Part shown: piece by piece, positions 4,246 through 13,849 of the stretch
How the letters are laid out: every line of letters begins with the position of its first letter
How positions within the stretch are numbered: the first letter of the stretch is position 1
Source of the DNA: a virus
IMG/VR virus record: IMGVR_UViG_3300025070_000205
Coordinates: 1-25,462 of that record
Length of the DNA: 25,462 nt
Reading direction: 5' to 3' (one strand)
Position numbers and translations under genes: made by a program
The notes under the pieces: generated by a model
Databases searched by the model: none
Seen by the model: the letters and a program-made list of their open reading frames with translations, nothing else
What the model was told of the DNA's origin: nothing

Positions 4246-5153
4246 ATACAGCAATACACAACACACAAATCGCACCAAGCACGTACTTCTACGATCCCCA
4301 ACTTGGCGTGTACATTACAATCAGAACAATCGACCCAATCATGGCCAAGGAGTTACTTGCCGGACAGCACAAGAACCGAAACATATCTCCATTCTCCGTG
4401 AATCGATACAAGGAGTTCATGCAAAGCAATCAATGGGTAATGAATGGCGAACCCATTATCTTCGGTGGCAATAAGCTAATCGACGGGCAACATCGTCTGA
4501 CTGCGTGCATACAAGCAGGTAAAAGTTTCCAGTCTGTATGGATCGAGTTGCAGGATGATGGCGCGTTCAAGACTCTAAACCAAGGTAAGCGCAGAAATCC
4601 CGCAGATGTTTTGTCCATTGAAGGACACGCAAACGTCTCCGTTTTGAATTCAGCAATTACGATGCTTGCAAGGATTGACGAAGTAGGTGAGTTACCGTTC
4701 CAAGGTTTCGGTGGAGGCACAAGGGCTTCAATCCCCAACCATGAGATCAACGAGTGGGCTAAAAAGTATCCGCACTTGGGACTGACCGTTAAGAAGTGTC
4801 AGGCGTGGTATAAGAACTTCCGCTTAAAGAAAGGACCGTCCTCCACGCTTCACTACATGCTGAGAAGATCGGAGACACACTTGTTCGACTTCGATGACGA
4901 GAGTGCGGATTCCAATGCAGACAAGTTTTTCGACTCGCTTTGCAGTGGACTGGACTTGTCCAAGGGTAGTCCTATTCTTCCATACCGCAACCACCTCCTG
5001 CGCATGATGTCGGCTAACGAGAAGATTAGTCCACACTACATCATCCGTGGTGGAATTCTCAGTTACAATGCTTGGTTGACCGGACAAAAGACAAACACGT
5101 GCAGGGTTGGACGGATTACCAAGATCCCGAAGATCAACAAGGCCAATGCATGA
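4242..5153 (+). CDS. ParB-like nuclease-fold protein
   Basis: 303 aa. The N-terminal third holds the ParB/sulfiredoxin-like core motif DGQHRL at residues 81-86, preceded by a typical strand NGEPIIFGGNKLI and followed by AGKSFQSVWIEL. In phages, proteins with this motif are common but rarely assigned a biochemical role; DNA or nucleotide binding is likely. No partition partner (ParA) is present. The start overlaps the resolvase stop by four bases (ATGA). Confidence 0.7.
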   Translation: MNTAIHNTQIAPSTYFYDPQLGVYITIRTIDPIMAKELLAGQHKNRNISPFSVNRYKEFMQSNQWVMNGEPIIFGGNKLIDGQHRLTACIQAGKSFQSVWIELQDDGAFKTLNQGKRRNPADVLSIEGHANVSVLNSAITMLARIDEVGELPFQGFGGGTRASIPNHEINEWAKKYPHLGLTVKKCQAWYKNFRLKKGPSSTLHYMLRRSETHLFDFDDESADSNADKFFDSLCSGLDLSKGSPILPYRNHLLRMMSANEKISPHYIIRGGILSYNAWLTGQKTNTCRVGRITKIPKINKANA

Positions 5154-5496
5154 GCCTGATCTTTCCGAATTCAAACAACAAACTGACGAGTCTGTAAGGC
5201 AAGCCTCCCTCCGTTTGGCGGATAAGTACGGAGTGGAGGCTGCCACGGCACGGAATTGGGTATTGGGGCATCAAGACCCGCTCAAGGGTTTGGTGAGGCT
5301 CAAGAAGAGCCGAGAGATGGACGAGAACTTACGGGCCATGATGGCCTTTGCGTTACCTGGTTACACCTACACACTCGATGAGATTGCCGAGTGTATTGGC
5401 TGCTCCAAAGAACGGGTCCGGCAGATCCAGGATACCGCCCTGCGGAAGCTCAGAAGACGAACAGATTACTTAAAGAAAGAATTAAAAAAACAATGA
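5146..5496 (+). CDS. small protein with sigma-70 region 4-like helix-turn-helix
   Basis: 116 aa. Residues 74-105 (YTLDEIAECIGCSKERVRQIQDTALRKLRRR) are a very good match to sigma region 4.2, the part of sigma factors that reads the -35 element. Regions 2 and 3 are absent, so it is not a complete sigma factor. An N-terminal stretch (VRQASLRLADKYGVEAATARNWVLG, residues 18-41) could be a second HTH. It overlaps the ParB-like gene by eight bases. I chose the ATG at 5146 over an in-frame start at 5107 deep inside that gene. A second protein with the same motif is at 12557-12856. Confidence 0.7.
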   Translation: MHEPDLSEFKQQTDESVRQASLRLADKYGVEAATARNWVLGHQDPLKGLVRLKKSREMDENLRAMMAFALPGYTYTLDEIAECIGCSKERVRQIQDTALRKLRRRTDYLKKELKKQ

Positions 5497-5603: not shown

Positions 5604-6065
5604 ATGTGTAAAAGCAACGAAAAAAGGATCCGTTTTGCACCCGTCCCGCTTGCCATTTTGGATGAGTATTGTGAACTCCACGGCATGACACCAAGTGCCG
5701 CAATATCGCCGCTAATTACGGCATATTTGCGGCATCCCTCGCGCGCGTCGCGTCATTCTTTACAGAATGAATATAATATACATAGCCAAGAAAGTACGGA
5801 TTCGCCGCAAATTGCGGCAAAGCAAAAACCGAAACCTCGCAAGAAAAACAAGACCCCACTGCCCGAAGATTTCGATCCACCAAAAGCGATTTGCGAAGAG
5901 GCAGGAGTGGACCACGAAAAAGCAGTTAGGTTTTTCAAAGCCCAAGCGGAAGCAAAAGATTATCGTTACGTAAATTGGAACAAGGCATTCGCATTGGCGG
6001 TGAACGGTTACCTCGTACAAAACTACCCGCAGATTTTGCAGACCAAACAGGAGAACGAATTTTAG
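5604..6065 (+). CDS. probable replication initiation / helicase-loader protein
   Basis: 153 aa. The first 45 residues look like a short helical DNA-binding or RHH-like module (KRIRFAPVPLAILDEYCELHGMTPSAAISPLITAYL). A basic, Pro/Lys-rich linker follows (residues about 74-90). The C-terminal part (AVRFFKAQAEAKDYRYVNWNKAFALAVNGYL) resembles the C-terminal DnaT/phage O-like domain that delivers DnaB to DNA. It lies one base before the dnaB-like helicase gene, the expected place for a loader. The family assignment is from pattern and context only. Confidence 0.55.
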   Translation: MCKSNEKRIRFAPVPLAILDEYCELHGMTPSAAISPLITAYLRHPSRASRHSLQNEYNIHSQESTDSPQIAAKQKPKPRKKNKTPLPEDFDPPKAICEEAGVDHEKAVRFFKAQAEAKDYRYVNWNKAFALAVNGYLVQNYPQILQTKQENEF

Positions 6066-6066
6066 C

Positions 6067-7350
6067 ATGGATTACGACCTGGCGGAAATTGCGGTCCTTG
6101 CCGCATCCATGCGTGATGAGTCGGGCCGAGGATCGGCTACCGCATTAGAGCATCTAACCCCCCAAGATTTCTCATCCCCCGAAAGGCAACGCATATTCGA
6201 AGCAATCGGTAAGCTCGCACCCAAATGTAACGAGATAGACATACTCATTGCGGAACCATCCTTGGCGGATAGCATTACTTTTATTTCGGAGCAGTACGGA
6301 GGTGGACAAATCGAGCGTTACGTTGATTACCTAATCGAACACCGCAACCATCGTGCAATTGAGTTAGCGATACTCAAGGCACAAGACACGATCAAAGAGG
6401 GTGGAACCGCAGAAGAGGTTGCTTCCTCCTTCACGCACTCCGTAGCCAAGGCACTGAGTAAACGCAAAGGGCAGGTTTCTCTCAAAGATGCCGCCACCCA
6501 AGCACAAGCGGATTTTTACAATATCGATGCAGGCGGAGTCTCCGCAATCCCCACGGGGTTCTCGAAACTGGATGCCCACCTTCAAGGAGGTTTGAAAAAC
6601 GGAAGCTTGTACGTGATTGCCGCAAGACCAGGTATCGGGAAATCAGCACTTGCGATCCACCTGGCAATCCAAGCAGCACAAAAGGGAATCCGTTCCTCTT
6701 ACGCCAGTCTCGAAATGACAGCACCGGAATGCGCTGGCAGGTTACTCACTTCCGTAAGCGGAGTTTCCCGTCCAACCGCACAGGGCAGTCTCTCCCACAG
6801 CGACAGGCAAAAGATTGAGCAAACCGTCAAAGCGTTACGAGGTTGGCCGATTACATTCAAAGACGATAACCAGGCAACCCTTGAGGCATTCTGCGCATTT
6901 CTCGCTCAGCAGCGCTTGGAAGGAGAACTAGGTTTGGCAGTGATAGACTACCTTCAACTCCTCACCTCTCCCGGTTTCTCCTCCCGCCATGAAGAAGTCA
7001 GCGCGATTTCTCGTAGCATGAAAGCCCAAGCACTGGAGCTTGACTTGCCCGTGGTCGCGTTAAGCCAACTCAACCGCAACCTGGAAGCACAAAACCGCAA
7101 ACCCGCTTTGTCGGATCTCCGAGAGTCCGGGTCCATAGAACAAGACGCTGATGTGGTCATGCTCCTATCCAAAGAAAAAGAAGTTTCTCCTTCAAAGGAC
7201 ATCATCCGAATTCACCTTGCGAAGAATCGAAACGGGGAAACTGGATACGTCTTAGCGGAGTTCGACAAAAGCGTAGGGCGATTCTCGACCCACATTCCAA
7301 GCAGATTGAATGAAGAATCACCCGTTTCTCCTTCGCAACCGTCTTGGTAG
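6067..7350 (+). CDS. dnaB: replicative DNA helicase, DnaB family
   Basis: 427 aa. Hexameric 5'-3' helicase that unwinds the replication fork. The N-terminal helical domain (residues about 1-130) is followed by a linker helix and the RecA-like ATPase: Walker A RPGIGKS (187-193), SLEMTAPECAGRLL motif (214-227), Walker B AVIDYLQLL with Asp294, and the SQLNRNLE...ALSDLRESGSIEQDADVV stretch (333-364) typical of DnaB. It is slightly shorter than cellular DnaB (usually about 450-470 aa). No primase or polymerase is encoded in the window, so the phage probably recruits host enzymes or encodes them beyond the right edge. Three GTTTCTCC motifs lie in its 3' third. Confidence 0.95.
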   Translation: MDYDLAEIAVLAASMRDESGRGSATALEHLTPQDFSSPERQRIFEAIGKLAPKCNEIDILIAEPSLADSITFISEQYGGGQIERYVDYLIEHRNHRAIELAILKAQDTIKEGGTAEEVASSFTHSVAKALSKRKGQVSLKDAATQAQADFYNIDAGGVSAIPTGFSKLDAHLQGGLKNGSLYVIAARPGIGKSALAIHLAIQAAQKGIRSSYASLEMTAPECAGRLLTSVSGVSRPTAQGSLSHSDRQKIEQTVKALRGWPITFKDDNQATLEAFCAFLAQQRLEGELGLAVIDYLQLLTSPGFSSRHEEVSAISRSMKAQALELDLPVVALSQLNRNLEAQNRKPALSDLRESGSIEQDADVVMLLSKEKEVSPSKDIIRIHLAKNRNGETGYVLAEFDKSVGRFSTHIPSRLNEESPVSPSQPSW

Positions 7351-7555
7351 ACTTCAGAACGCGACCAAAAGATACGATAGGAGACGCAAGAAGGGGTCTA
7401 ATCGTGCGTTTCGGGAAAAAAGAGGGTCAATACCCGTGCAAGGGTAGCAAAAGGCTTTTAAGGGGCGTTAAGGGATTAAGCGTGACCAGGTAAAAGATCC
7501 GGCCTCACTCAGGAGGGTGCGGTTTGGGCCGTTTCTCCTTCCGTTCAAGCCCTAT
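7351..7555. other. convergent intergenic region without a gene
   Basis: About 200 bases lie between the DnaB stop and the terminator of the minus-strand operon. Small inverted repeats are present (GGGTcaatACCC near 7425; CGGCC...GGCCG spanning about 7500-7531), but no convincing plus-strand terminator with a T run was found. One copy of GTTTCTCCTT lies at 7531-7540. I see no coding potential. Confidence 0.6.
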
Positions 7556-7591
7556 AAAAAGCCCCCGCGAGGTATCCCGCCCCGCGAGGGC
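7555..7591 (-). terminator. rho-independent terminator of the minus-strand accessory operon
   Basis: The arms 7561-7572 and 7580-7591 pair at 10 of 12 positions, are G/C rich and enclose a 7-base loop. Read on the minus strand, the stem is followed by a T run (A run at 7556-7560 on the plus strand). It sits 20 bases past the last gene of the operon. On the plus strand no T run follows, so it should act in one direction only. Confidence 0.85.
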
Positions 7592-7610: not shown

Positions 7611-7787
7611 TTAGGCGCGTTTCTCCTTGTAGATGCGTACCCTTCGATTGTGGACCTTGCGGCCAAGCTCGATGATTCGGTTCCCTTGTTCCTCGGTTAT
7701 GTCATACCAGGAGGCAAACCGTTCGCGGGTTAAAAAGTTATTCAACCAGTCAAGGTAAAGGTTTTGCAGTTTCTCGTATACGCTCAT
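7611..7787 (-). CDS. hypothetical small protein (last gene of accessory operon)
   Basis: 58 aa, aromatic N-terminal half (MSVYEKLQNLYLDWLNNF), basic C-terminal half (GRKVHNRRVRIYKEKRA). Not recognised. The ATG overlaps the preceding gene's stop by four bases and is preceded by GGGGAAGG, a strong Shine-Dalgarno sequence. The terminator follows directly, supporting a real expressed gene. Confidence 0.6.
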   Translation of the reverse strand: MSVYEKLQNLYLDWLNNFLTRERFASWYDITEEQGNRIIELGRKVHNRRVRIYKEKRA

Positions 7788-8011
7788 CCTTCCCCCCTCA
7801 CTTGTATTCTACCCTTTCCTGCAATTACGTCTTGATATTCCCATTCTCCGAGAATGCATACTTTGGATAGCAAGTCATCAATTTTCTTTTTGAAGTAAAC
7901 ACGATACAAGCCATGCATTCGAATGCCATCAATGTAGTAAGGGTTTCTATGAATTACGTGCCAAACGTTGCCATCATAATCTTTGATTTTTCCCTTGCTT
8001 TTTAGGCTCAT
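7784..8011 (-). CDS. hypothetical protein
   Basis: 75 aa, not recognised. Many aromatic and charged residues (NVWHVIHRNPYYIDGIRMHGLYRVYFKKKIDDLL) suggest a small beta-rich fold. It ends RGEG because its stop overlaps the next gene's Shine-Dalgarno sequence and start; it starts with the same GAAGGATGAG junction. Confidence 0.6.
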   Translation of the reverse strand: MSLKSKGKIKDYDGNVWHVIHRNPYYIDGIRMHGLYRVYFKKKIDDLLSKVCILGEWEYQDVIAGKGRIQVRGEG

Positions 8012-8349
8012 CCTTCACCCCCGTCTACCTTTGCGAGGACAGAGCGGACCTCTTCGAGTGCTTCGTCCGTCCCCGTTTCTCCTTGCATTGCAAGCTCTGT
8101 AAGCAATCGCTCAAGGATCTTCGCCTGGGCGTGCAACTCAGGGGCTGCCGCGATTAGGCGAGCGTTTGCAACATCTTCGTTTTGTTCGAAGCTATTTTGC
8201 ATTAGGCAAATCGGATGCAGTGCCGTTGCTCCTTTTTCGCAAGTCATCCTTTTGCCGTTGTTTGCGAAAATACTCCCTTCTCCGTTGCCTTGACCGCAAT
8301 GCCACGGTCCAGGCGTGAACGTCGCGCGTTTCTCTTTGTCCTCACTCAT
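8008..8349 (-). CDS. TPGPW / Ea22-like phage protein
   Basis: 113 aa. The N-terminal ATFTPGPWHCGQGNGEGSIFANNGKR and the later VANARLIAAAPELHAQAKILERLL are the two signature stretches of a family found widely in accessory regions of tailed phages, function unknown. The ATG at 8349 was chosen because it follows GGAAGG and overlaps the preceding stop (ATGA); an upstream in-frame start at 8424 would lie deep inside the neighbour. Ends GGEG, again because of the embedded ribosome-binding site of the next gene. Confidence 0.75.
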   Translation of the reverse strand: MSEDKEKRATFTPGPWHCGQGNGEGSIFANNGKRMTCEKGATALHPICLMQNSFEQNEDVANARLIAAAPELHAQAKILERLLTELAMQGETGTDEALEEVRSVLAKVDGGEG

Positions 8350-8561
8350 CCTTCCACCCTCCCGTTCTTGATCTCGCAAAGCGTAGAATAATAGGAGGAA
8401 TACCCGCTTGGGTCTTTGTTCCATATCTCTTTAACTCTCGCCCTTTCTGCTTCCGTTTCCGGTTTGATATTATCACAACGCGAATTCGGGCCGAATGCGG
8501 ATTGATTGCAAAGCATTAGCAACTCTTCAGCGCGTTGTTTGGTGATTGTTTCGTTTTTCAT
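8346..8561 (-). CDS. hypothetical protein
   Basis: 71 aa, not recognised. Helical, charged N-terminus (MKNETITKQRAEELLMLCNQSAFG) and a Tyr/Ser patch (SGYSSYYSTLC). It starts at a junction AACTAGAACTATGAAAA that is identical to the one before the gene at 8763-8954. It overlaps the next gene by four bases. Confidence 0.55.
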   Translation of the reverse strand: MKNETITKQRAEELLMLCNQSAFGPNSRCDNIKPETEAERARVKEIWNKDPSGYSSYYSTLCEIKNGRVEG

Positions 8562-8565
8562 AGTT

Positions 8566-8763
8566 CTAGTTCAATTCGAATCTCCATTCAATATGATGCT
8601 CCAGGTCATTGATTAAGGCTTTTTTCGCTACAATCTTTTCCATCAATTCGAAAAGTCTTTCCTGCATTTCAGTCAATGTTTGCTTCTCTTTCTTCAATCT
8701 TTCCTCTATGCGTGAAAGAGTTTCAATTGAGCCTTGAGTTGTGTTTTCGTACGGGTAACTCAT
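8566..8763 (-). CDS. hypothetical coiled-coil protein
   Basis: 65 aa. Residues 12-58 (SIETLSRIEERLKKEKQTLTEMQERLFELMEKIVAKKALIN) have clear heptad spacing, predicting a coiled coil. Not otherwise recognised. The ATG shares one base with the stop of the upstream gene (TAATG) and follows GGGGGAAGG. Confidence 0.6.
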   Translation of the reverse strand: MSYPYENTTQGSIETLSRIEERLKKEKQTLTEMQERLFELMEKIVAKKALINDLEHHIEWRFELN

Positions 8764-8954
8764 TATCCTTCCCCCCTTTCCAGTCTCTTTAATTCCTCAA
8801 CCCCTTTTGGGGTTAAGGTTATGATTCGGCCCTTGGATAAAGTTGTGAGGCCAAGGTCGTTTAGGTCGCACGCATCGAGTAAGTCCTCGTCTTTGAGTCT
8901 ACCAAGCTGAATTTTTTTCGATGCATAGCGTTTTAATTGTTCTTTGATTTTCAT
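8763..8954 (-). CDS. hypothetical protein, possible winged-helix
   Basis: 63 aa. LKDEDLLDACDLNDLGLTTLSKGRIITLTPKGVEELKRLERGEG resembles the end of a winged-helix domain (strand-turn-strand then 'TPKGVEELKRL'), a pattern common in small phage and bacterial regulators. The N-terminal helix is basic. A Shine-Dalgarno AGGAG lies 12 bases before the ATG as part of a GTTTCTCCT motif copy on the opposite strand. Confidence 0.55.
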   Translation of the reverse strand: MKIKEQLKRYASKKIQLGRLKDEDLLDACDLNDLGLTTLSKGRIITLTPKGVEELKRLERGEG

Positions 8955-8958
8955 AGTT

Positions 8959-9156
8959 CTAGTTTCTCCTGATTGATTGTTGTAATTGTAGCTCTAACTG
9001 CCTGCCTTGCCTCGCGCGTTTAACGCTATTTACGGTGATCGTTCCACGATCCGCGCATTGTGCCGCCAGTTTCTCCTTCTCCGTTGCCAAGCGGATAATT
9101 GCGTTTATTTCTGCCATGGCTAAAGGCGCGAGTTCGGACATTTTATATAGTGGCAT
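8959..9156 (-). CDS. hypothetical helical protein
   Basis: 65 aa, not recognised; almost entirely helical and Ala/Leu/Gln rich (MAEINAIIRLATEKEKLAAQ, then RARQGRQLELQLQQSIRRN). I chose the ATG at 9156 because it follows a Shine-Dalgarno sequence (AAAGGCGAAGTAATG) and shares a base with the stop of the 20-aa reading frame upstream. An in-frame ATG at 9183 has no such site. Confidence 0.55.
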   Translation of the reverse strand: MPLYKMSELAPLAMAEINAIIRLATEKEKLAAQCADRGTITVNSVKRARQGRQLELQLQQSIRRN

Positions 9157-9218
9157 TACTTCGCCTTTCCTTTGAGCATCCAAAGAAGGACCCGTTCGCG
9201 TTCAGTGAGATTATCCAT
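9156..9218 (-). CDS. 20-aa coupling peptide or leader
   Basis: Encodes MDNLTERERVLLWMLKGKAK. It starts inside the end of the upstream gene with the AAGACAATG junction also used by two other genes of this operon, and its TAA overlaps the next ATG (TAATG). Either it is a real micro-protein or it passes ribosomes from one gene to the next. Confidence 0.4.
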   Translation of the reverse strand: MDNLTERERVLLWMLKGKAK

Positions 9219-9456
9219 TGTCTTGGCCTCCGTTGAGAAACTGCACGGCTTCACGTTTATTCGTTTCAACCGTTTCAATCATAAGTGCGATATCCTTTTG
9301 ATTCGCCTTGTACCATTTGCTTTTAATCAATTCGCGTTGCCAATATCCTGATGCTTTTTCAATTACTTGCGGGATGTCCCAGCGCCCAAGCTCAAGGCCA
9401 TTGCGAATCAATGGCAAATCGGCATCGTGTTTAATATATTCGGTAAGTGTTTTCAT
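9211..9456 (-). CDS. hypothetical protein
   Basis: 81 aa, not recognised. Looks like a compact helical protein (WDIPQVIEKASGYWQRELIKSKWYKANQKDIALMIETVETNKREAVQFLN). The ATG follows a stop-NACT-ATGAAAA junction similar to those at 8561 and 8954. It ends eight bases inside the 20-aa reading frame. Confidence 0.6.
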   Translation of the reverse strand: MKTLTEYIKHDADLPLIRNGLELGRWDIPQVIEKASGYWQRELIKSKWYKANQKDIALMIETVETNKREAVQFLNGGQDNG

Positions 9457-9460
9457 AGTA

Positions 9461-9541
9461 TTAACTGTTGATAATGGATTGGTGGAGAACCCAAAAGACT
9501 GGAAGCCACGGGCAGAGTAAAATAAGAATATCGTAATTCAT
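9461..9541 (-). CDS. 26-aa hydrophobic peptide
   Basis: Encodes MNYDILILLCPWLPVFWVLHQSIINS, which could span a membrane once. It fills most of the gap between two better-supported genes and ends four bases before the next ATG. No Shine-Dalgarno sequence is visible. It may be a small membrane protein or a chance frame. Confidence 0.35.
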   Translation of the reverse strand: MNYDILILLCPWLPVFWVLHQSIINS

Positions 9542-9575
9542 GATAGCGTTTTGACGTGTTTGGTAGTTTGTAGAA

Positions 9576-9908
9576 TTACGAGTTTTTGCCTTGGGATTCT
9601 GTCCATTTTTCAAGAGTGGCAATCTGCAGAATATGGAAAGCTTGACTCAAGATATAATCGTCCAATCTGACGTTGTCCGTATTATGGTCATTCTCCATGC
9701 GGGAATCTTCGGCCTTGTCGAATAGCTCGCGATTTTCAAATCTGATAAAGTCAACCAAGCGCCAAGCTTTATAGTAAACGAAGGAATGATCGCAATTGGC
9801 GCAGATCTCATGGATCGCGCTCCAATGGTCGAAAGAATCGTCGAGGTTATAATCTTTTACGGATTCCGTGAGTGAATCAATAAGTGAATCGAATTCTGAT
9901 AATTTCAT
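9576..9908 (-). CDS. hypothetical acidic protein
   Basis: 110 aa, acidic, rich in Asp, aromatic residues and His (DDSFDHWSAIHEICANCDHSFVYYKAWRLVDFIRFE). Not recognised. I chose the ATG at 9908 because it follows AAAGGACAAGACA, nearly the same leader as the gene upstream (AAAGGACTAAGACA before 10138). An in-frame ATG at 9950 lies inside the upstream gene. Small acidic early proteins can be DNA mimics, but nothing here proves that. Confidence 0.6.
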   Translation of the reverse strand: MKLSEFDSLIDSLTESVKDYNLDDSFDHWSAIHEICANCDHSFVYYKAWRLVDFIRFENRELFDKAEDSRMENDHNTDNVRLDDYILSQAFHILQIATLEKWTESQGKNS

Positions 9909-9931
9909 TGTCTTGTCCTTTGGTTGAATGG

Positions 9932-10138
9932 TTACGCTTTCTTGATCCATAGGTGGCCAAGGATAAAGCCGAATTTCTTTTCGCGAATCTTTGCACGCAC
10001 TGTTTGCCGAAGCTTATTGTCATGCATGAGAGAGACTCTCCCGGTCTCAAGGATATGCGCGTTGATTAGGGAATCTTCTTTGCTCAAGTCAGAGCTAAAG
10101 AAAAACGATTCATTTCCATTAGATAATACTTTATTCAT
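9932..10138 (-). CDS. hypothetical protein, first gene of the accessory operon
   Basis: 68 aa, not recognised (central segment SSDLSKEDSLINAHILETGRVSLMHDNKLRQTVRAKIREKKFG). The ATG at 10138 has a Shine-Dalgarno sequence AAAGGAC. A longer frame from 10222 would start inside the TTGACA promoter box and is rejected. As the first gene after the promoter it is expected to be expressed most. Confidence 0.6.
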   Translation of the reverse strand: MNKVLSNGNESFFFSSDLSKEDSLINAHILETGRVSLMHDNKLRQTVRAKIREKKFGFILGHLWIKKA

Positions 10139-10166: not shown

Positions 10167-10183
10167 AACGGGAAAGCCCCGTT
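10167..10183. promoter_or_regulatory. inverted repeat in the 5' leader of the accessory operon
   Basis: AACGGG and CCCGTT form a perfect 6-bp inverted repeat around AAAGC, just downstream of the -10 region. It could be a repressor operator or an RNA hairpin. Confidence 0.5.
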
Positions 10184-10195
10184 GGATATGAGCAA

Positions 10196-10222
10196 ATTGT
10201 CACGTTCCGTAGTATGTGTCAA
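10196..10222 (-). promoter_or_regulatory. sigma-70-like promoter of the accessory operon
   Basis: Read on the minus strand: a perfect -35 TTGACA (10222-10217) and a -10 candidate GACAAT (10201-10196) with a 15-base spacer; shifting one base gives ACAATT at 16. It lies about 60 bases before the first gene. The -35 is convincing and the -10 less so. Confidence 0.5.
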
Positions 10223-10240
10223 ACATATTTATGCATTATT

Positions 10241-10372
10241 TTACAATAGCGTACAATCGGTGAAACCGAGGCTATTGAGTTTCGAAGGAAAAAGGGTTGC
10301 GAATGCCACCAGGTCGCGAATGAATAAAAGCAGAGCAAACGCAATGTGATGGATTATCGCTTGCCAATTCAT
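10241..10372 (-). CDS. possible 43-aa membrane peptide
   Basis: MNWQAIIHHIAFALLLFIRDLVAFATLF followed by a short polar tail: one likely membrane span. AAGGGCG precedes the ATG by a few bases. It stands alone upstream of the accessory promoter, and the surrounding region looks non-coding, so this may be chance. Confidence 0.3.
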   Translation of the reverse strand: MNWQAIIHHIAFALLLFIRDLVAFATLFPSKLNSLGFTDCTLL

Positions 10373-10394
10373 TTCGCCCTTGAGTCGCAAAAAA

Positions 10395-10410
10395 AGAATT
10401 CGCGAATTCT
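10395..10410. repeat. perfect 16-bp palindrome
   Basis: AGAATTCGCGAATTCT reads the same on both strands. It lies in non-coding DNA beside an A/T-rich stretch. Candidate operator or initiator-binding site. Confidence 0.75.
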
Positions 10411-10543
10411 CAGCAAATAAATAATTAGAGCAACTGTACCAAGTAGTGAGCGCGAGCGATTGAAGGACATGACCGCGAATCCATGGCAAAGTTTGCCCTC
10501 GGTTTGTCACATATTGACGCAAGCCCAGCAACTATCGCAACTA

Positions 10544-10566
10544 GCAGAAGACTCAAAGTCTTTTGC
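10544..10566. repeat. stable hairpin in non-coding DNA
   Basis: Arms 10544-10553 (GCAGAAGACT) and 10557-10566 (AGTCTTTTGC) pair over 10 bp with one G-U, around a CAA loop. No T run follows on either strand, so it is not a standard terminator. Confidence 0.65.
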
Positions 10567-10749
10567 CTACCAAAACGAACCGGAAACTGGCCCATTAGTG
10601 AGACGCACCCAGGCACGAGCTACTGACGCGGGTCAGAGGGGGGGGGCGGGGGTGCGCGTCATAGCGCGCTAATCTCTGTATTATCATTACCTCCCCCACA
10701 ACTTTTTTCGCAATAAGCCCCCCCTGGTCCCGTGTCTTGCGTATCCCAT

Positions 10750-10787
10750 CCTATCCGCGCTATATGTCCTATCCGCGCTATCCGCGC
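10750..10787. repeat. three iteron-like CTATCCGCGC repeats
   Basis: CTATCCGCGC occurs at 10751-10760, 10769-10778 and 10778-10787. The first two belong to an identical 14-mer CCTATCCGCGCTAT starting at 10750 and 10768, 18 bases apart. Confidence 0.8.
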
Positions 10788-10929
10788 CCTAGTAGCCACC
10801 CGTAGCGAAGACTGGGTGACTGCTATTTATTCTGATGGGTTTCTGAGTTTCTATGGTCCTGTGCTTCTGTGTTGCATTTATGAGAATGCCTGAGAGTAGG
10901 CCACCCTTGGTCATAGAGATGGGCGAGTG

Positions 10930-11538
10930 TTATGAGCCACTCGTAGTCGTATCGAGTGGTTTGTATATTTGGTAGCCCTTGTTGATGACTACTTCTTTGC
11001 AGAGGTCGATGAATTCTTCGTCCGTCATTTGTCCCTTTGCCTGGTTTGCTTCTGAGCATAGTATTTGGAGATTGTTAATGGTATTGTCTCCGCCACGGGC
11101 AATTGGGGTTATATGATCGTATTGGTAGTCTTCGGGGTTATTCCAATTGAGTGGTCTTCCGGTTAATGCGCAGGGGAAGTGGTCACCGTAGATCTTATGA
11201 ACGTCTTTATAGTTGAAAGTCATGGATGATTGAAATTGGCATGATTTTTGGGTGATTGCCTTCTTGATTTGCCTGGGTGACTTGTGCTGATACCACGGTT
11301 GCCTTGGGGGTGATTGGGTTCGTGGATGTTGAAAGTGCCATATACGCTTCGTGAGTAGGACTGAGGGTGATGTTTCCCTTAGTCTTGCTTCTCTCTGTCT
11401 AACCTTTTCTTTTTGACCGGGAGAGAGGTGGTAGGAGATTGTGGACTTCGAACAGTTTAATTGCTGTTGAATTTTATTGTATGACCAACCGAGTTCTCTG
11501 AGGCGTATTATCTTCGGCCCTAGATTTTTGTTATTCAT
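10930..11538 (-). CDS. HNH endonuclease with N-terminal helix-turn-helix
   Basis: 202 aa. Residues 8-38 (PKIIRLRELGWSYNKIQQQLNCSKSTISYHLS) are a clear HTH. The C-terminal HNH domain has CALTGR (123-128), DHITPIARGGDNTINNLQILC (141-161) and NQAKG (165-169), with His142, Asn156 and a terminal Asn165 in the expected places. Only one half of the usual Cys zinc pairs is kept. HNH proteins near terminase genes can aid DNA packaging; free-standing ones can be homing nucleases. It overlaps the gene upstream by eight bases, which argues for a resident gene. Confidence 0.85.
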   Translation of the reverse strand: MNNKNLGPKIIRLRELGWSYNKIQQQLNCSKSTISYHLSPGQKEKVRQREARLRETSPSVLLTKRIWHFQHPRTQSPPRQPWYQHKSPRQIKKAITQKSCQFQSSMTFNYKDVHKIYGDHFPCALTGRPLNWNNPEDYQYDHITPIARGGDNTINNLQILCSEANQAKGQMTDEEFIDLCKEVVINKGYQIYKPLDTTTSGS

Positions 11539-12055
11539 CGTCCTGTTCTAGGTGGACTACCTTTTGTTCTGAAGCTTCAGTGGGTTGTTCTTTGACTGTT
11601 TTGGATGCACCCTTGAGGATATTGCGTACTTGATCGGGTGACATGTCTGATTGTCCGAGTGTGACGTTTGCGGATGCTGTAATGTTTGATGGTCTTCCTG
11701 AGACTGTGAGGAACTTGTCCATTATGATGGATACTGCATAGGCTAGGTTTTGGGGAGGTATGTCATCCAGCTTGGAGTGTAGGATGTTGAGTGAATCCCC
11801 TACCATGTTCGAGAGCTTGCCGTTTACTTGGTTTAGAAATTCTTGTTCCGTCATGTCCAGGCGGTAACGGAGGAAGTTGGCGACTGACTGCCTTAGTTCG
11901 GGGTCTACCTTTTTAAGTTCCCGTGCTTCTTCGGTTGCGTTTGATTGCTTGGCCGCGATCTTGGCGGCTGAATTGATTATTTTATTCTTAGTCATATCGT
12001 CAACGAAGCCTCTTACGGAGTTTGGTTTTTTTCTTCTTCTATAGATTCTTGGCAT
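11531..12055 (-). CDS. hypothetical protein, possible small terminase or DNA-binding protein
   Basis: 174 aa. Basic N-terminus (MPRIYRRRKKP), helical middle, then DDIPPQNLAYAVSIIMDKFLTVSGRPSNITASANVTLG (residues about 97-134). The 'NLAYAVSIIMDKFLTVSGRPS' pattern is seen in phage small-terminase-like proteins. It ends in a charged tail. Coupling to an HNH gene agrees with a packaging role, but it is on the opposite strand from the large terminase and 2.3 kb away. The assignment is tentative. Confidence 0.5.
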   Translation of the reverse strand: MPRIYRRRKKPNSVRGFVDDMTKNKIINSAAKIAAKQSNATEEARELKKVDPELRQSVANFLRYRLDMTEQEFLNQVNGKLSNMVGDSLNILHSKLDDIPPQNLAYAVSIIMDKFLTVSGRPSNITASANVTLGQSDMSPDQVRNILKGASKTVKEQPTEASEQKVVHLEQDDE

Positions 12056-12119: not shown

Positions 12120-12560
12120 ATGGATACTGAACGGGCAAAGAAGATATTGGCGGATTCGGGTATTGAGCATCCTGTATTTGCGCAGAGGCTTGGCATTAAG
12201 GCGAATAGCTTTCGTATGAACCTGAGTATGGGACGGTTGAGTAAGAAAGCTGTGGCTTTACTCTTAGAGTTGGAAGCTGATCTGAAGGAGGACAAGGAGG
12301 ACGGACCTTCTGAGGCGGCAATGGTGAAGGAGGGAATGATCCGTCAGACTTTGGAAGTACCCTTGGAGAAAATGGGCAAGGTGTATATGTTACCCAAGAA
12401 TCCGTATTTGCGTCTTGTTGAGTTCAAGGATGGAAGCCATGGCAAGTTCAAGGCTCAACCTGGTAAGTTCGTATTGGGTGCGATTGTAAAGTTAGCCCAT
12501 GAGAAGGGTGACATGTATCGCTTGGTGGGTAGGTACGACAGGAAGGATCGGTTGGTATGA
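12120..12560 (+). CDS. hypothetical protein with HTH-like N-terminus
   Basis: 146 aa. Residues 5-50 (AKKILADSGIEHPVFAQRLGIKANSFRMNLSMGRLSKKAVALLLELE) resemble the Cro/XRE-like HTH core. The C-terminal part (KMGKVYMLPKNPYLRLVEFKDGSHGKFKAQPGKFVLGAIVKLAHEKGDMYRLVGRYD) looks beta-rich. First gene of the plus-strand late half, so it could be a regulator. Function not assigned. Confidence 0.65.
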   Translation: MDTERAKKILADSGIEHPVFAQRLGIKANSFRMNLSMGRLSKKAVALLLELEADLKEDKEDGPSEAAMVKEGMIRQTLEVPLEKMGKVYMLPKNPYLRLVEFKDGSHGKFKAQPGKFVLGAIVKLAHEKGDMYRLVGRYDRKDRLV

Positions 12561-12856
12561 GTGAAGCCCTACAGATGTCCAGGGTGACCGGATTTCATCG
12601 AGTGTCCTGTGGTGAGTATTTGCGAGGTCAGACTGACCCGTTTGAGAAGAGTAGTCGCATACAGAAGGAACTGACCGATTGCTTGCTTGCTATCTTGGCT
12701 TTATCTGCTCCGCGAGGGGTTCCCATGTCCTGCCGGGAGATTGGAGAGTTTTGCGGCATCTCCAAGCAACGAGTCCATCAGATCGAGAAGGAAGCCATGA
12801 AGAAACTTAGAAGTAACTCAACGGTCACCCGCAAGGAGTTTAGGCAATGGAAATAG
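12557..12856 (+). CDS. second small protein with sigma-70 region 4-like HTH
   Basis: 99 aa. Residues 57-86 (MSCREIGEFCGISKQRVHQIEKEAMKKLRS) match sigma region 4.2 well. As in the protein at 5146-5496, no region 2 is present. The two share the same HTH layout but little else. It overlaps the preceding gene by four bases (ATGA). It lies upstream of the late operons, so it is a candidate regulator of the paired late promoters. Confidence 0.7.
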   Translation: MSEALQMSRVTGFHRVSCGEYLRGQTDPFEKSSRIQKELTDCLLAILALSAPRGVPMSCREIGEFCGISKQRVHQIEKEAMKKLRSNSTVTRKEFRQWK

Positions 12857-12993
12857 ACAAGACTCGAATAGAGAAGGCATTAAGCGACTTAAAGACCTTA
12901 GTTGCCCAGGTTGGCAATGCCCGTGTTCGAGAACTCTACCGGAAACCACTTGAGGAATTTATCAAAGACGTAGCGAAACATTATGAAAATTGA
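12847..12993 (+). CDS. hypothetical 48-aa protein
   Basis: MEIDKTRIEKALSDLKTLV, then a helical second half ending VAKHYEN. Not recognised. It overlaps the sigma-like gene by ten bases and the next gene by eleven, within a run of closely packed small genes. Confidence 0.55.
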   Translation: MEIDKTRIEKALSDLKTLVAQVGNARVRELYRKPLEEFIKDVAKHYEN

Positions 12994-13084
12994 CCCAATA
13001 GAACCGAACGACGATTGGATATGCGACGAGATGTGGGGAGTCGAGGAAGACGAGGATGACGAAACCGAAGAAGAGGAAGAGTGA
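12983..13084 (+). CDS. hypothetical 33-aa acidic peptide
   Basis: MKIDPIEPNDDWICDEMWGV followed by an almost purely Asp/Glu tail. It overlaps both neighbours. Strong acidity is the only visible feature. Confidence 0.45.
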   Translation: MKIDPIEPNDDWICDEMWGVEEDEDDETEEEEE

Positions 13085-13259
13085 AAAGTTGCTTACCTTG
13101 CCCGAAGCACACAAGGCGTGGGAACGCTTTTGGAGCAATACTCGAATTCTCGGATTCACCGAGGACGAGCATGGGGAGAAGCAAGCTATTCGCACGGACG
13201 TCCAACGAATCATGCCTGAGAACTACGGGAGTTTGAATTTTACGAACAGGAAGAAATGA
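13056..13259 (+). CDS. hypothetical basic protein
   Basis: 67 aa with a basic start (MTKPKKRKSEK) and a helical middle (LPEAHKAWERFWSNTRILGF). Not recognised. The start lies 29 bases inside the preceding acidic peptide gene; the stop overlaps the next ATG by four bases. Confidence 0.55.
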   Translation: MTKPKKRKSEKLLTLPEAHKAWERFWSNTRILGFTEDEHGEKQAIRTDVQRIMPENYGSLNFTNRKK

Positions 13260-13432
13260 GTGAGGCCAGTAGACAGTGCATTCATGAGTTAAAAGCTTTG
13301 TTCCATAGGTGGGAAGAGGAGAGTGACTTGGAACAGGATGACATACTAGACTGTACTAAAGACGCTTTGAATGAGTATTACGATGAAGACGTCATTGAAT
13401 TCGAGTCTGAGATTGACGAGGAGGAGGAATGA
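13256..13432 (+). CDS. hypothetical acidic protein
   Basis: 58 aa (MSEASRQCIHELKALFHRW start, then a very acidic tail ending EIDEEEE). Starts with an ATGA overlap and ends with another, so translation is probably coupled along this run of genes. Confidence 0.55.
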   Translation: MSEASRQCIHELKALFHRWEEESDLEQDDILDCTKDALNEYYDEDVIEFESEIDEEEE

Positions 13433-13614
13433 ACGTTCACCAACCAACTAAGAAGATAAGCTCCTGGCCGCAAATGGTTGTGCGTTTGACCAAGGAGCGG
13501 GATGAATTGATCAAGGAGAACAAGGAACTCAGCAAGGAGAACTTGGAACTCAAGAGAAGATGTTCCGACCTATGGAGAGAACTTTCTGAGGAAAGGGCAA
13601 AGAGTGATTCGTGA
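13429..13614 (+). CDS. hypothetical coiled-coil protein
   Basis: 61 aa. Residues 18-56 (VRLTKERDELIKENKELSKENLELKRRCSDLWRELSEE) have regular heptads, a likely coiled coil. Could be a small oligomerising accessory protein; no family recognised. Confidence 0.6.
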   Translation: MNVHQPTKKISSWPQMVVRLTKERDELIKENKELSKENLELKRRCSDLWRELSEERAKSDS

Positions 13615-13849
13615 AATGTCCACCAGGATTCAACCCGATCTTTTGGAGAAAATACGGGCGAGCAATACCCATATCAGTTGCCGAGTTACCACGGTGCGAC
13701 TTGAAAAAGCTGGGTCCACCATGCTCGAAATTAAGCCCAGAGACGTTGGAACGGATACGGAGGGATGGACGGTTGGGCCGGAAGAAATCGCGGTCCAAAC
13801 GCTCGAAGAAGGGATTATCGTAGGCATGGAGATCCAAGCGAGGGAATGA
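13604..13849 (+). CDS. hypothetical protein (frame chosen over an overlapping alternative)
   Basis: 81 aa from GTG, or 77 aa from the ATG at 13616. It ends ...VGPEEIAVQTLEEGIIVGMEIQARE, and its TGA overlaps the next ATG, as for its neighbours. First-position G is frequent in this frame, as in the neighbouring genes. A second open frame (13611-13823, GTG start) covers the same bases and encodes a Cys/Arg-rich protein; see findings. Function unknown. Confidence 0.55.
   Translation: MIREMSTRIQPDLLEKIRASNTHISCRVTTVRLEKAGSTMLEIKPRDVGTDTEGWTVGPEEIAVQTLEEGIIVGMEIQARE

Follow-up and report, generated by a model that had tools for sequence, protein, structure and literature searches.

A probable accessory cassette operon of an integrase-bearing tailed phage and the oriented word on its coding strand

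The stoperators of Cluster A mycobacteriophages are, in the accounts drawn on here, repressor-bound sites spread across the genome. In the mobile regulatory cassettes of T4 (PeSL) and in the lambda nin gene chain, small genes are shuffled at short repeated boundaries or at stop/start overlaps. The accessory genes of phages form a very large pool of proteins without assigned function. Among accessory proteins, Ea22, to which a pro-lysogenic activity is ascribed, is described in the portions of the literature used here as having a central coiled coil (PMC10834534) and a C-terminal domain repertoire that differs between lambda and Stx phages, with a shared terminal K/RGE motif (PMC10834534, PMC7093339). 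The Start-Associated Sequences of Cluster K mycobacteriophages are presented, in the part of the source consulted, as a short asymmetric word in nearly always one orientation, lying immediately 5' of gene starts with rare exceptions, upstream of unrelated genes and sometimes together with the previous stop codon (PMC3203893).

Here we analysed a 25,462-nt stretch of viral DNA (IMG/VR record IMGVR_UViG_3300025070_000205, positions 1 to 25,462; hereafter the window) that carries a row of tiny genes next to dnaB. The locus is probably an accessory cassette operon of an integrase-bearing tailed phage, with an oriented, apparently selected word on the operon strand.

Layout of the operon and its flanking signals

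The block of twelve tiny minus-strand ORFs (20-113 codons, 7611-10138) described by the first-pass annotation is present, and its genes and flanking signals are as follows.

10196..10222, minus strand, candidate promoter: TTGACA at 10222-10217, 15 nt, then GACAAT
10167..10183, minus strand, leader hairpin, AACGGG-loop-CCCGTT; kept in 5/5 relatives (L018, L020, L019, L021, L042)
9932..10138, minus strand, g1: 68 aa; 83% in the L018/L020 relatives
9576..9908, minus strand, g2: 110 aa, acidic, pI 4.6, charge -12; pN/pS 0.53 from one pair
9461..9541, minus strand, g3: hydrophobic 26-aa peptide, recurring in relatives (19 loci); pN/pS 0.17
9211..9456, minus strand, g4: 81 aa; pN/pS 0.14
9156..9218, minus strand, g5: marginal 20-aa ORF; close relatives 90% identical; pN/pS 0.43 from only 7 synonymous changes
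8959..9156, minus strand, g6: 65 aa; recurrent family; one word copy inside
8763..8954, minus strand, g7: 63 aa; possible winged helix, low-confidence model; pN/pS 0.17
8566..8763, minus strand, g8: 65 aa, coiled coil (Pfam Trimer_CC, 7.5e-7); pN/pS 0.28
8346..8561, minus strand, g9: 71 aa; pN/pS 0.20
8008..8349, minus strand, g10: 113-aa TPGPW protein, phrog_1273; ends constant, middle (~8172-8301) swapped
7784..8011, minus strand, g11: 75 aa; pN/pS 0.35 from one pair
7611..7787, minus strand, g12: 58 aa; phrog_26669/4907; pN/pS 0.09
7555..7591, minus strand, intrinsic terminator: 12-bp stem with 10 GC pairs, T-rich tail (7591-7561)

Stop and start codons overlap by 1-8 nt at g4/g5, g5/g6, g7/g8, g9/g10, g10/g11 and g11/g12. 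For ten of these genes an alignable relative exists, and silent changes were in excess in all ten (pN/pS 0.09-0.53); g1 was left out because of an insertion in its relative and g10 because of its variable middle. The ratio was weakest for g2 and g5, and the 26-codon g3 is well supported as a gene. By this comparison, the genes are under coding constraint wherever the test is possible.

The terminator scored strongly in a scan, in agreement with the earlier call, and its words were found again in 18/18 loci of the three nearest lineages (7/7, 4/4, 7/7). The proposed promoter fared less well. Boxes resembling -35 and -10 elements are present and the -35 box is conserved in L018 and L020, but the site is weak: the box is not conserved in L019, L021 and L042 (2/5 relatives), and 10196-10222 was absent from the list of a promoter scan, which returned 5 promoter-like sites against a chance expectation of 7.3. 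The scan miss and the restricted -35 box therefore leave the promoter plausible and unproven. An Rfam search of the sequence gave no match, and a tRNA search found none.

Among the encoded proteins, the acidic protein (g2) and the coiled coil (g8) were confirmed. The AlphaFold2 model of g7 has the order H-H-E-E-H at a mean pLDDT of 59, and a sequence search against the PDB found no relevant homologue; one PDB match (E=2.4e-5) was dismissed, as it covers 19 residues of a designed barrel. PHROG matches in the block are those of g10 and g12, all to families without assigned function.

No DNA similarity to named phages, near or distant, was found. The best terminase match is to Phage C75C1 (30% identity), whose portal and major head protein are 38% and 43% identical. 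A prophage search (one genome scan) returned one 18-kb contig (L099) in an Opitutia MAG, which is phage-like over the part present, with no bacterial flank seen, and gives a weak hint of Opitutia as host. That this is an accessory block of mostly unrecognised genes in an integrase-bearing phage is supported. The whole block is not conserved in lytic relatives: close homologues in isolated phages were seen for g12 alone, in phages named like the Felix-O1 type, which we take to be lytic, and the matches of g10, in 9 phage records, are weaker.

Turnover of the island and the swapped middle of g10

The gene content of this slot, bounded by dnaB and an HNH/174-aa gene pair, differs among related viral contigs. 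The 460 ORFs of 33 islands, counted after removal of the duplicates L002, L005 and L018, fell into 192 protein families, 113 of them confined to one island; the ORFs come from our own gene caller and include doubtful ones in the leader region. DNA similarity among relatives starts and stops at gene junctions, and the units of exchange are therefore single genes. In a hand-compiled list of block ends from these DNA comparisons, 25/40 distinct ends are no more than 12 nt away from a gene boundary, compared with 6.4 at random. In L021, the 26-bp end of g10 is duplicated exactly on both sides of an inserted gene. Horizontal movement of a gene is seen for g12, which is 96% identical in L007 though DnaB is just 53% identical. 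These sequence comparisons show conserved anchors, contents that turn over and block ends at junctions. For the 174-aa protein, PDB matches were no better than E=0.32 and Pfam gave only McrBC at E=0.024.

The TPGPW protein g10 had been labelled Ea22-like. This label was not borne out, as 0/36 family members match the Pfam Ea22 model (presumably Ead_Ea22) at E<=1. All 36/36 relatives of g10 match phrog_1273, as does g10 of the window (E=4.1e-13, residues 7-112); this family is without assigned function, so membership leaves g10 unexplained. The AlphaFold2 model has beta strands at 16-45 (low confidence) followed by three helices, and no long coiled coil like that of Ea22 is predicted in it. In fold searches with g10, nothing in the PDB reached E<=0.001, and the best E in a viral library was 0.028, the top matches there being uncharacterised or unnamed proteins; a sequence search against the PDB gave no relevant match.

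To compare the g10 middles, eight loci and incomplete copies were removed and 5/41 sequences with unrecognisable ends were then dropped. Where DnaB is >85% identical (133 pairs), the middles are <40% identical in 118 pairs and >=80% identical in 15, with none between, and where DnaB is <70% identical (423 pairs), 18 pairs share a middle (>50%); some DnaB are partial in these comparisons (the L008 match covers only 38 residues), so that identities may be inflated. As modelled, g10 would be a variable, mostly beta module carried on a constant helical base, and different middles would engage different partners.

Taken as an accessory cassette operon, the locus would consist of one-gene modules set between a fixed leader and a fixed terminator; relatives would gain, lose and swap these modules, with gene junctions, often stop/start overlaps, as the probable exchange points. 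The genes would be expressed early and may tune the host or the choice between lysis and lysogeny. With a bounded slot, one-gene modules, a swapped domain and dozens of natural relatives, cassette exchange becomes measurable here.

The oriented word

A ten-letter word, AAGGAGAAAC, recurs on the operon RNA strand, both in the block and in the final 400 bp of dnaB, and is almost absent outside them. Its copies in the window are as follows.

9069..9077, minus strand, word copy AGGAGAAAC, inside g6
8962..8970, minus strand, word copy at the g6 end and g7 ribosome-binding site
8075..8083, minus strand, word copy inside g10, where the model has a linker joining helices 2 and 3
7619..7627, minus strand, word copy at the end of the last gene, g12
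7531..7539, minus strand, word copy past the terminator
7324..7332, minus strand, word copy antisense in dnaB
7183..7191, minus strand, word copy antisense in dnaB
6974..6982, minus strand, word copy antisense in dnaB

In 58 de-duplicated loci, AAGGAGAAA occurs 254 times on the operon strand and 0 times on the opposite strand of a 201 kb domain, and 7 times in 427 kb outside it, both strands counted. This set includes L010, whose DnaB-like match is unrelated (22% identity) and whose operon strand is without AAGGAGAAA copies. With L002-L005 left out, word orientation in the domain is 274 vs 1. The word sits upstream of genes from different families in a single orientation, and an ATG follows 11-20 nt downstream in 119/222 copies.

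The pattern was looked for again in new loci sharing <50% of 25-mers on the island side (32/58 passed, 31 after de-duplication), a threshold loosened from a first, stricter filter of <10%. Islands of these loci carry 71 word copies on the operon strand and 0 on the other; none occurs in 138 kb of late side or in the 33 kb beyond. In the 4/58 loci that passed the stricter filter, 6 copies lie on the operon strand; the opposite strand has 0, as do 32 kb of late side. The dnaB ends of the new loci have only 1 copy in 4.15 kb. Clade D lineages (groups A-E were drawn by eye from identities) have a shifted word variant, and their dnaB copies are mostly missing.

Under a null of synonymous recoding, the dnaB end holds 17 word copies against a mean of 0.55 and gene interiors hold 39 against a mean of 7.4, counts that overstate significance because homologous loci are not independent. 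Among close relatives, positions in the dnaB copies capable of silent change are invariant in 11/11 cases, compared with 49/139 elsewhere. The word therefore seems, from these patterns, to be maintained by selection. Its presence at silent positions of a helicase and in unrelated genes suggests that such genes share a layer of control invisible to annotation.

Competing explanations and known systems

It is most likely that the word acts on RNA, given its sense-strand orientation and the location of about half of its copies before start codons; it would be an extended ribosome-binding word doubling as a binding or pairing site. A role on RNA only does not readily fit the dnaB-antisense copies beyond the terminator. 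Our first idea had been that the word is merely the operon's commonest ribosome-binding site, with in-gene copies as fusion scars and dnaB copies arising by chance. The many copies placed ahead of an ATG fit this idea, as do the interior copies in g6 and g10, which resemble full junction words at linkers. It was set back by the dnaB and interior copies, by the excess over the recoding nulls, by the invariance of 3/3 dnaB copies at silent positions and by the flanking genes, where AGGAG is frequent and AGGAGAAAC almost never occurs, and we now consider it unlikely. Of similarly low probability is a stoperator-like DNA site recognised by a repressor of the phage or by another protein, serving silencing or a one-directional block of transcription. 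Such a site would account for the uniform orientation along the operon, the presence of several copies in each genome, the sharp limits, the copies past the terminator and antisense in dnaB, and the conserved silent positions there. Nevertheless, the promoter and the first part of the operon are without copies in the window, the new loci have none until ~1.9 kb past the 174-aa gene, and a DNA site need not coincide with a ribosome-binding site, as about half of the copies do. Tentatively, and with little confidence, we suggest that the word is a trans-recognised control element tying the accessory island to the replication module, read by a phage factor or by the 3' end of the dnaB mRNA, where GUUUCUCCUU stretches are the perfect complement of AAGGAGAAAC. 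If so, any acquired gene would join common control by gaining AAGGAGAAAC, whatever genes are present, which would explain immediate control of newly acquired phage genes.

A recombination signal, Chi-like or by microhomology, could also drive cassette exchange in the island, as the word is polar, is limited to the fast-turnover region and has junction copies duplicated around the L021 inserted gene. Word-free junctions serve equally as block ends, so exchange does not require the word, and its identity with host Chi was not supported: in 115 genomes from the phylum of the relative-bearing MAG (G001) the word is not over-represented, though the host is uncertain; we regard this explanation as very doubtful. 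For the block as a whole, fast turnover of small genes beside conserved replication genes is a known pattern of anti-defence islands, and the small, unrecognised genes here share it. Roles in anti-defence, superinfection exclusion or host takeover had been suggested at first, and no sign of them was found when 124 family representatives were searched: the 8 matches from PADLOC are all one-protein matches with a best E=6.7e-4, and those from Pfam are confined to GP88, coiled-coil models and a DUF. PADLOC covers defence and not anti-defence proteins, so this result weighs little in either direction, and a block that is chiefly an anti-defence island seems to us somewhat unlikely.

The reading that we prefer, an accessory cassette operon, has its counterpart in the lambda exo-xis region, where, in the portions of the sources used, a temperate phage is likewise described as having small early accessory genes in a row (PMC10834534, PMC7093339). 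Ea22 of that literature varies, as far as it is described there, in its C-terminal domain, whereas g10 swaps its middle and its family fails the Ea22 Pfam model. Like the Start-Associated Sequences as reported in the consulted part of their source, the word has a single orientation and lies upstream of different families; unlike them, 103/222 copies are without an ATG 11-20 nt downstream, and some are dnaB-antisense or in genes. The word shares with stoperators, as these temperate-phage sites are outlined above, an asymmetric, oriented and repeated form, but is limited to the island and the dnaB end rather than genome-wide. Unlike in T4 PeSL, no promoter-stem-loop unit was found here and the word also lies inside genes; as in T4 PeSL and lambda nin, small genes are shuffled at repeated boundary sequences or stop/start overlaps.

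Coding support for the block and its surroundings

The plus strand of the 25,462-base record, which is a whole virus record, encodes an integrase, a single-strand binding protein, an exonuclease VIII-type exonuclease, a Holliday-junction resolvase, a sigma-region-4 protein and a DnaB-like helicase (dnaB, ending at 7350), with the terminase and major head protein further right. The twelve minus-strand ORFs listed in the first-pass annotation (g1, the first gene, to g12, the last) are present between dnaB and the following pair:

10930-12055, minus strand: HNH gene and conserved 174-aa gene

All ten block genes that could be compared with relatives had a pN/pS below 0.6, ranging from 0.09 (g12) to 0.53 (g2) and including 0.17 for the 26-codon g3; the value for g5 is based on few changes. 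The terminator proposed earlier for this operon is strong and recurs in relatives. The promoter proposed with it fared less well: our scan did not pick it up, and of five close relatives just two keep its -35 box, whereas all five keep a leader hairpin beside the first gene.

Several neighbouring features were also recorded. In two short proteins (5107-5496, E = 1.8e-10; 12557-12856, E = 4.3e-9) Pfam detects a sigma-70 region 4 domain and no other sigma region; they may be small transcription regulators. Directly upstream of dnaB lies a 153-aa protein (5604-6065) with no Pfam match, whose start, by eye, looks somewhat like a ribbon-helix-helix and whose end looks like that of a helicase loader. 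The 174-aa protein (11531-12055) adjoins the block, is highly conserved (50-94% identity in an 18-sequence alignment) and is without a family; it is perhaps a small terminase or a regulator. Two long stretches without convincing genes (10222-10930 and 12856-13765) lie on either side of the HNH/174-aa pair with its neighbours, and an Rfam search of both gave no match.

Turnover at gene junctions and a mosaic g10

Relatives were gathered with g10, g12 and DnaB as queries, and 33 islands extending between dnaB and either the HNH or the 174-aa gene were compared. The 460 operon-strand ORFs called in them, HNH and 174-aa genes counted in, fell into 192 families, 113 of which were confined to a single island. 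Among the recurrent elements were the g6/g10 cluster (30 of 33 islands), a family built around a membrane-like core of 42-46 aa (24 of 33, absent from the window) and a family of 28-32 aa hydrophobic peptides (20 of 33), to which relatives of g3 belong, g3 itself having been missed by the gene caller. The membrane-like peptide sits near the dnaB side of islands, for example in the loci L064 and L091.

Of 427 pairs of adjacent genes, 126 overlap by 4 bases, the most frequent spacing. When the window was aligned with close relatives, similarity started and stopped at gene boundaries: 25 of the 40 distinct block ends lay no more than 12 nt from a boundary, where 6.4 would be expected at random. 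In the related locus L021, the g10 end occurs as perfect 26-bp copies on either side of an inserted gene. Judged from sequence identities, single genes also move between lineages, as in L007, where g12 is 96% identical and DnaB only 53%. The block is a swappable slot with turnover at gene junctions. An HNH endonuclease (10930-11538) with an HTH-like start lies at one edge of it and might conceivably help to spread it in the manner of a homing enzyme.

Exchange also reaches inside g10, which is itself a mosaic. In 36 parsed sequences, the start up to TPGPW and the end from ARLIAAAPEL are conserved and lineage-specific, and the middle (28-70 residues) is replaced as one unit. Among 133 pairs with DnaB more than 85% identical, middles were below 40% identical in 118 and at least 80% in 15, with none between. 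The reverse also occurred: of the 423 pairs whose DnaB identity was below 70%, 18 had a common middle (>50%), and in 16 of these the middle was more similar than the tail. Nine of the 16 middle types occur in more than one DnaB lineage. In the structure model, beta strands are placed at 16-45 with low confidence and helices, mostly confident, at 53-108, which suggests that the swapped part is a beta module carried by a helical base. Every one of the 36 alignment members matches phrog_1273 and none matches the Pfam Ea22 profile, so that this test lends no support to the earlier label 'Ea22-like'. A limited literature search for TPGPW and IAAAPELL found no earlier description of this mosaic.

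Profiling of 124 island family representatives returned two matches to GP88 and single matches to each of three coiled-coil or unknown models (Pfam), PHROG matches without description, and eight one-protein PADLOC matches, none better than 6.7e-4. The anti-defence role suggested previously is possible, and nothing in this analysis points to it.

An oriented word on the operon strand

In the domain made up of the final 420 bp of dnaB and the following 3.5 kb, no 9-mer was more frequent on the operon strand than AAGGAGAAA (254 copies, 56 of 58 de-duplicated loci), with 0 copies on the other strand and 7 in the 427 kb outside. Counted in 500-bp bins over loci that were not de-duplicated, AGGAGAAAC was spread over the final 500 bp of dnaB and roughly the next 4 kb, with 274 copies on the operon strand versus 1 on the other; the remaining bins listed held none on the operon strand. 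The word is the most clustered 9-mer in the window (8 copies). In the islands of 31 further loci, all 71 copies lay on the operon strand, and none occurred in the late side (138 kb) or in the 33 kb past the dnaB end. Copies within dnaB are frequent in clades A-C (lineage groups set by eye) and rare in the others; clade D favours the variant AAAGAGAAAC.

An ATG lies 11-20 nt downstream of 119 of 222 copies, where the word recurs, in three reading frames, as the C-terminal tails KEKLA, RRN and KGETA. The remainder lie inside genes, at the last-gene end, past the terminator or, in dnaB, on the antisense strand. With homologous sites counted more than once in both tests, the last 140 codons of 29 dnaB genes held 17 copies versus a mean of 0.55 on random synonymous recoding (maximum 3 in 500 runs), and the interiors of 275 supported island ORFs held 39 versus 7.4 (maximum 14 in 200 runs). 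All three copies were invariant across nine distinct close dnaB sequences, compared with 5.2% of 9-mers in the same stretch, and silent-capable positions were unchanged at 11 of 11 sites in the copies versus 49 of 139 elsewhere (Fisher p = 2.3e-5). On this sequence evidence, the word is not only a ribosome-binding site and seems to be under selection; the repeated counting of homologous sites, the uneven spread of the dnaB copies among clades and the variant favoured by clade D weigh against this reading.

Readings of the word and known counterparts

The word keeps to the sense strand and in many cases overlaps the ribosome-binding site, which leads us to suggest that it is read on the RNA of the operon; the operon itself may be a place where small early genes get tried out. 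The main rival is a DNA-binding, stoperator-like site, a role that would better fit the copies in dnaB, but the absence of the word near the promoter counts against it. Counts in 115 genomes of the phylum to which the sole relative-bearing MAG belongs, itself only a tentative pointer to the host, do not support a host Chi role for the word. That relative, L099, is a phage contig assigned to an Opitutia MAG, with terminase and portal 74% and 67% identical to those of the window, a weak hint of a Verrucomicrobiota host.

For g10, the nearest precedent is Ea22, an early protein of small size that comes with a set of exchangeable domains (PMC10834534, PMC7093339). The nearest known counterpart of the word is the Start-Associated Sequences of Cluster K, which are asymmetric, oriented, found at the starts of unrelated genes and of unknown function; unlike the word described here, they are tied to gene starts with rare exceptions (PMC3203893).
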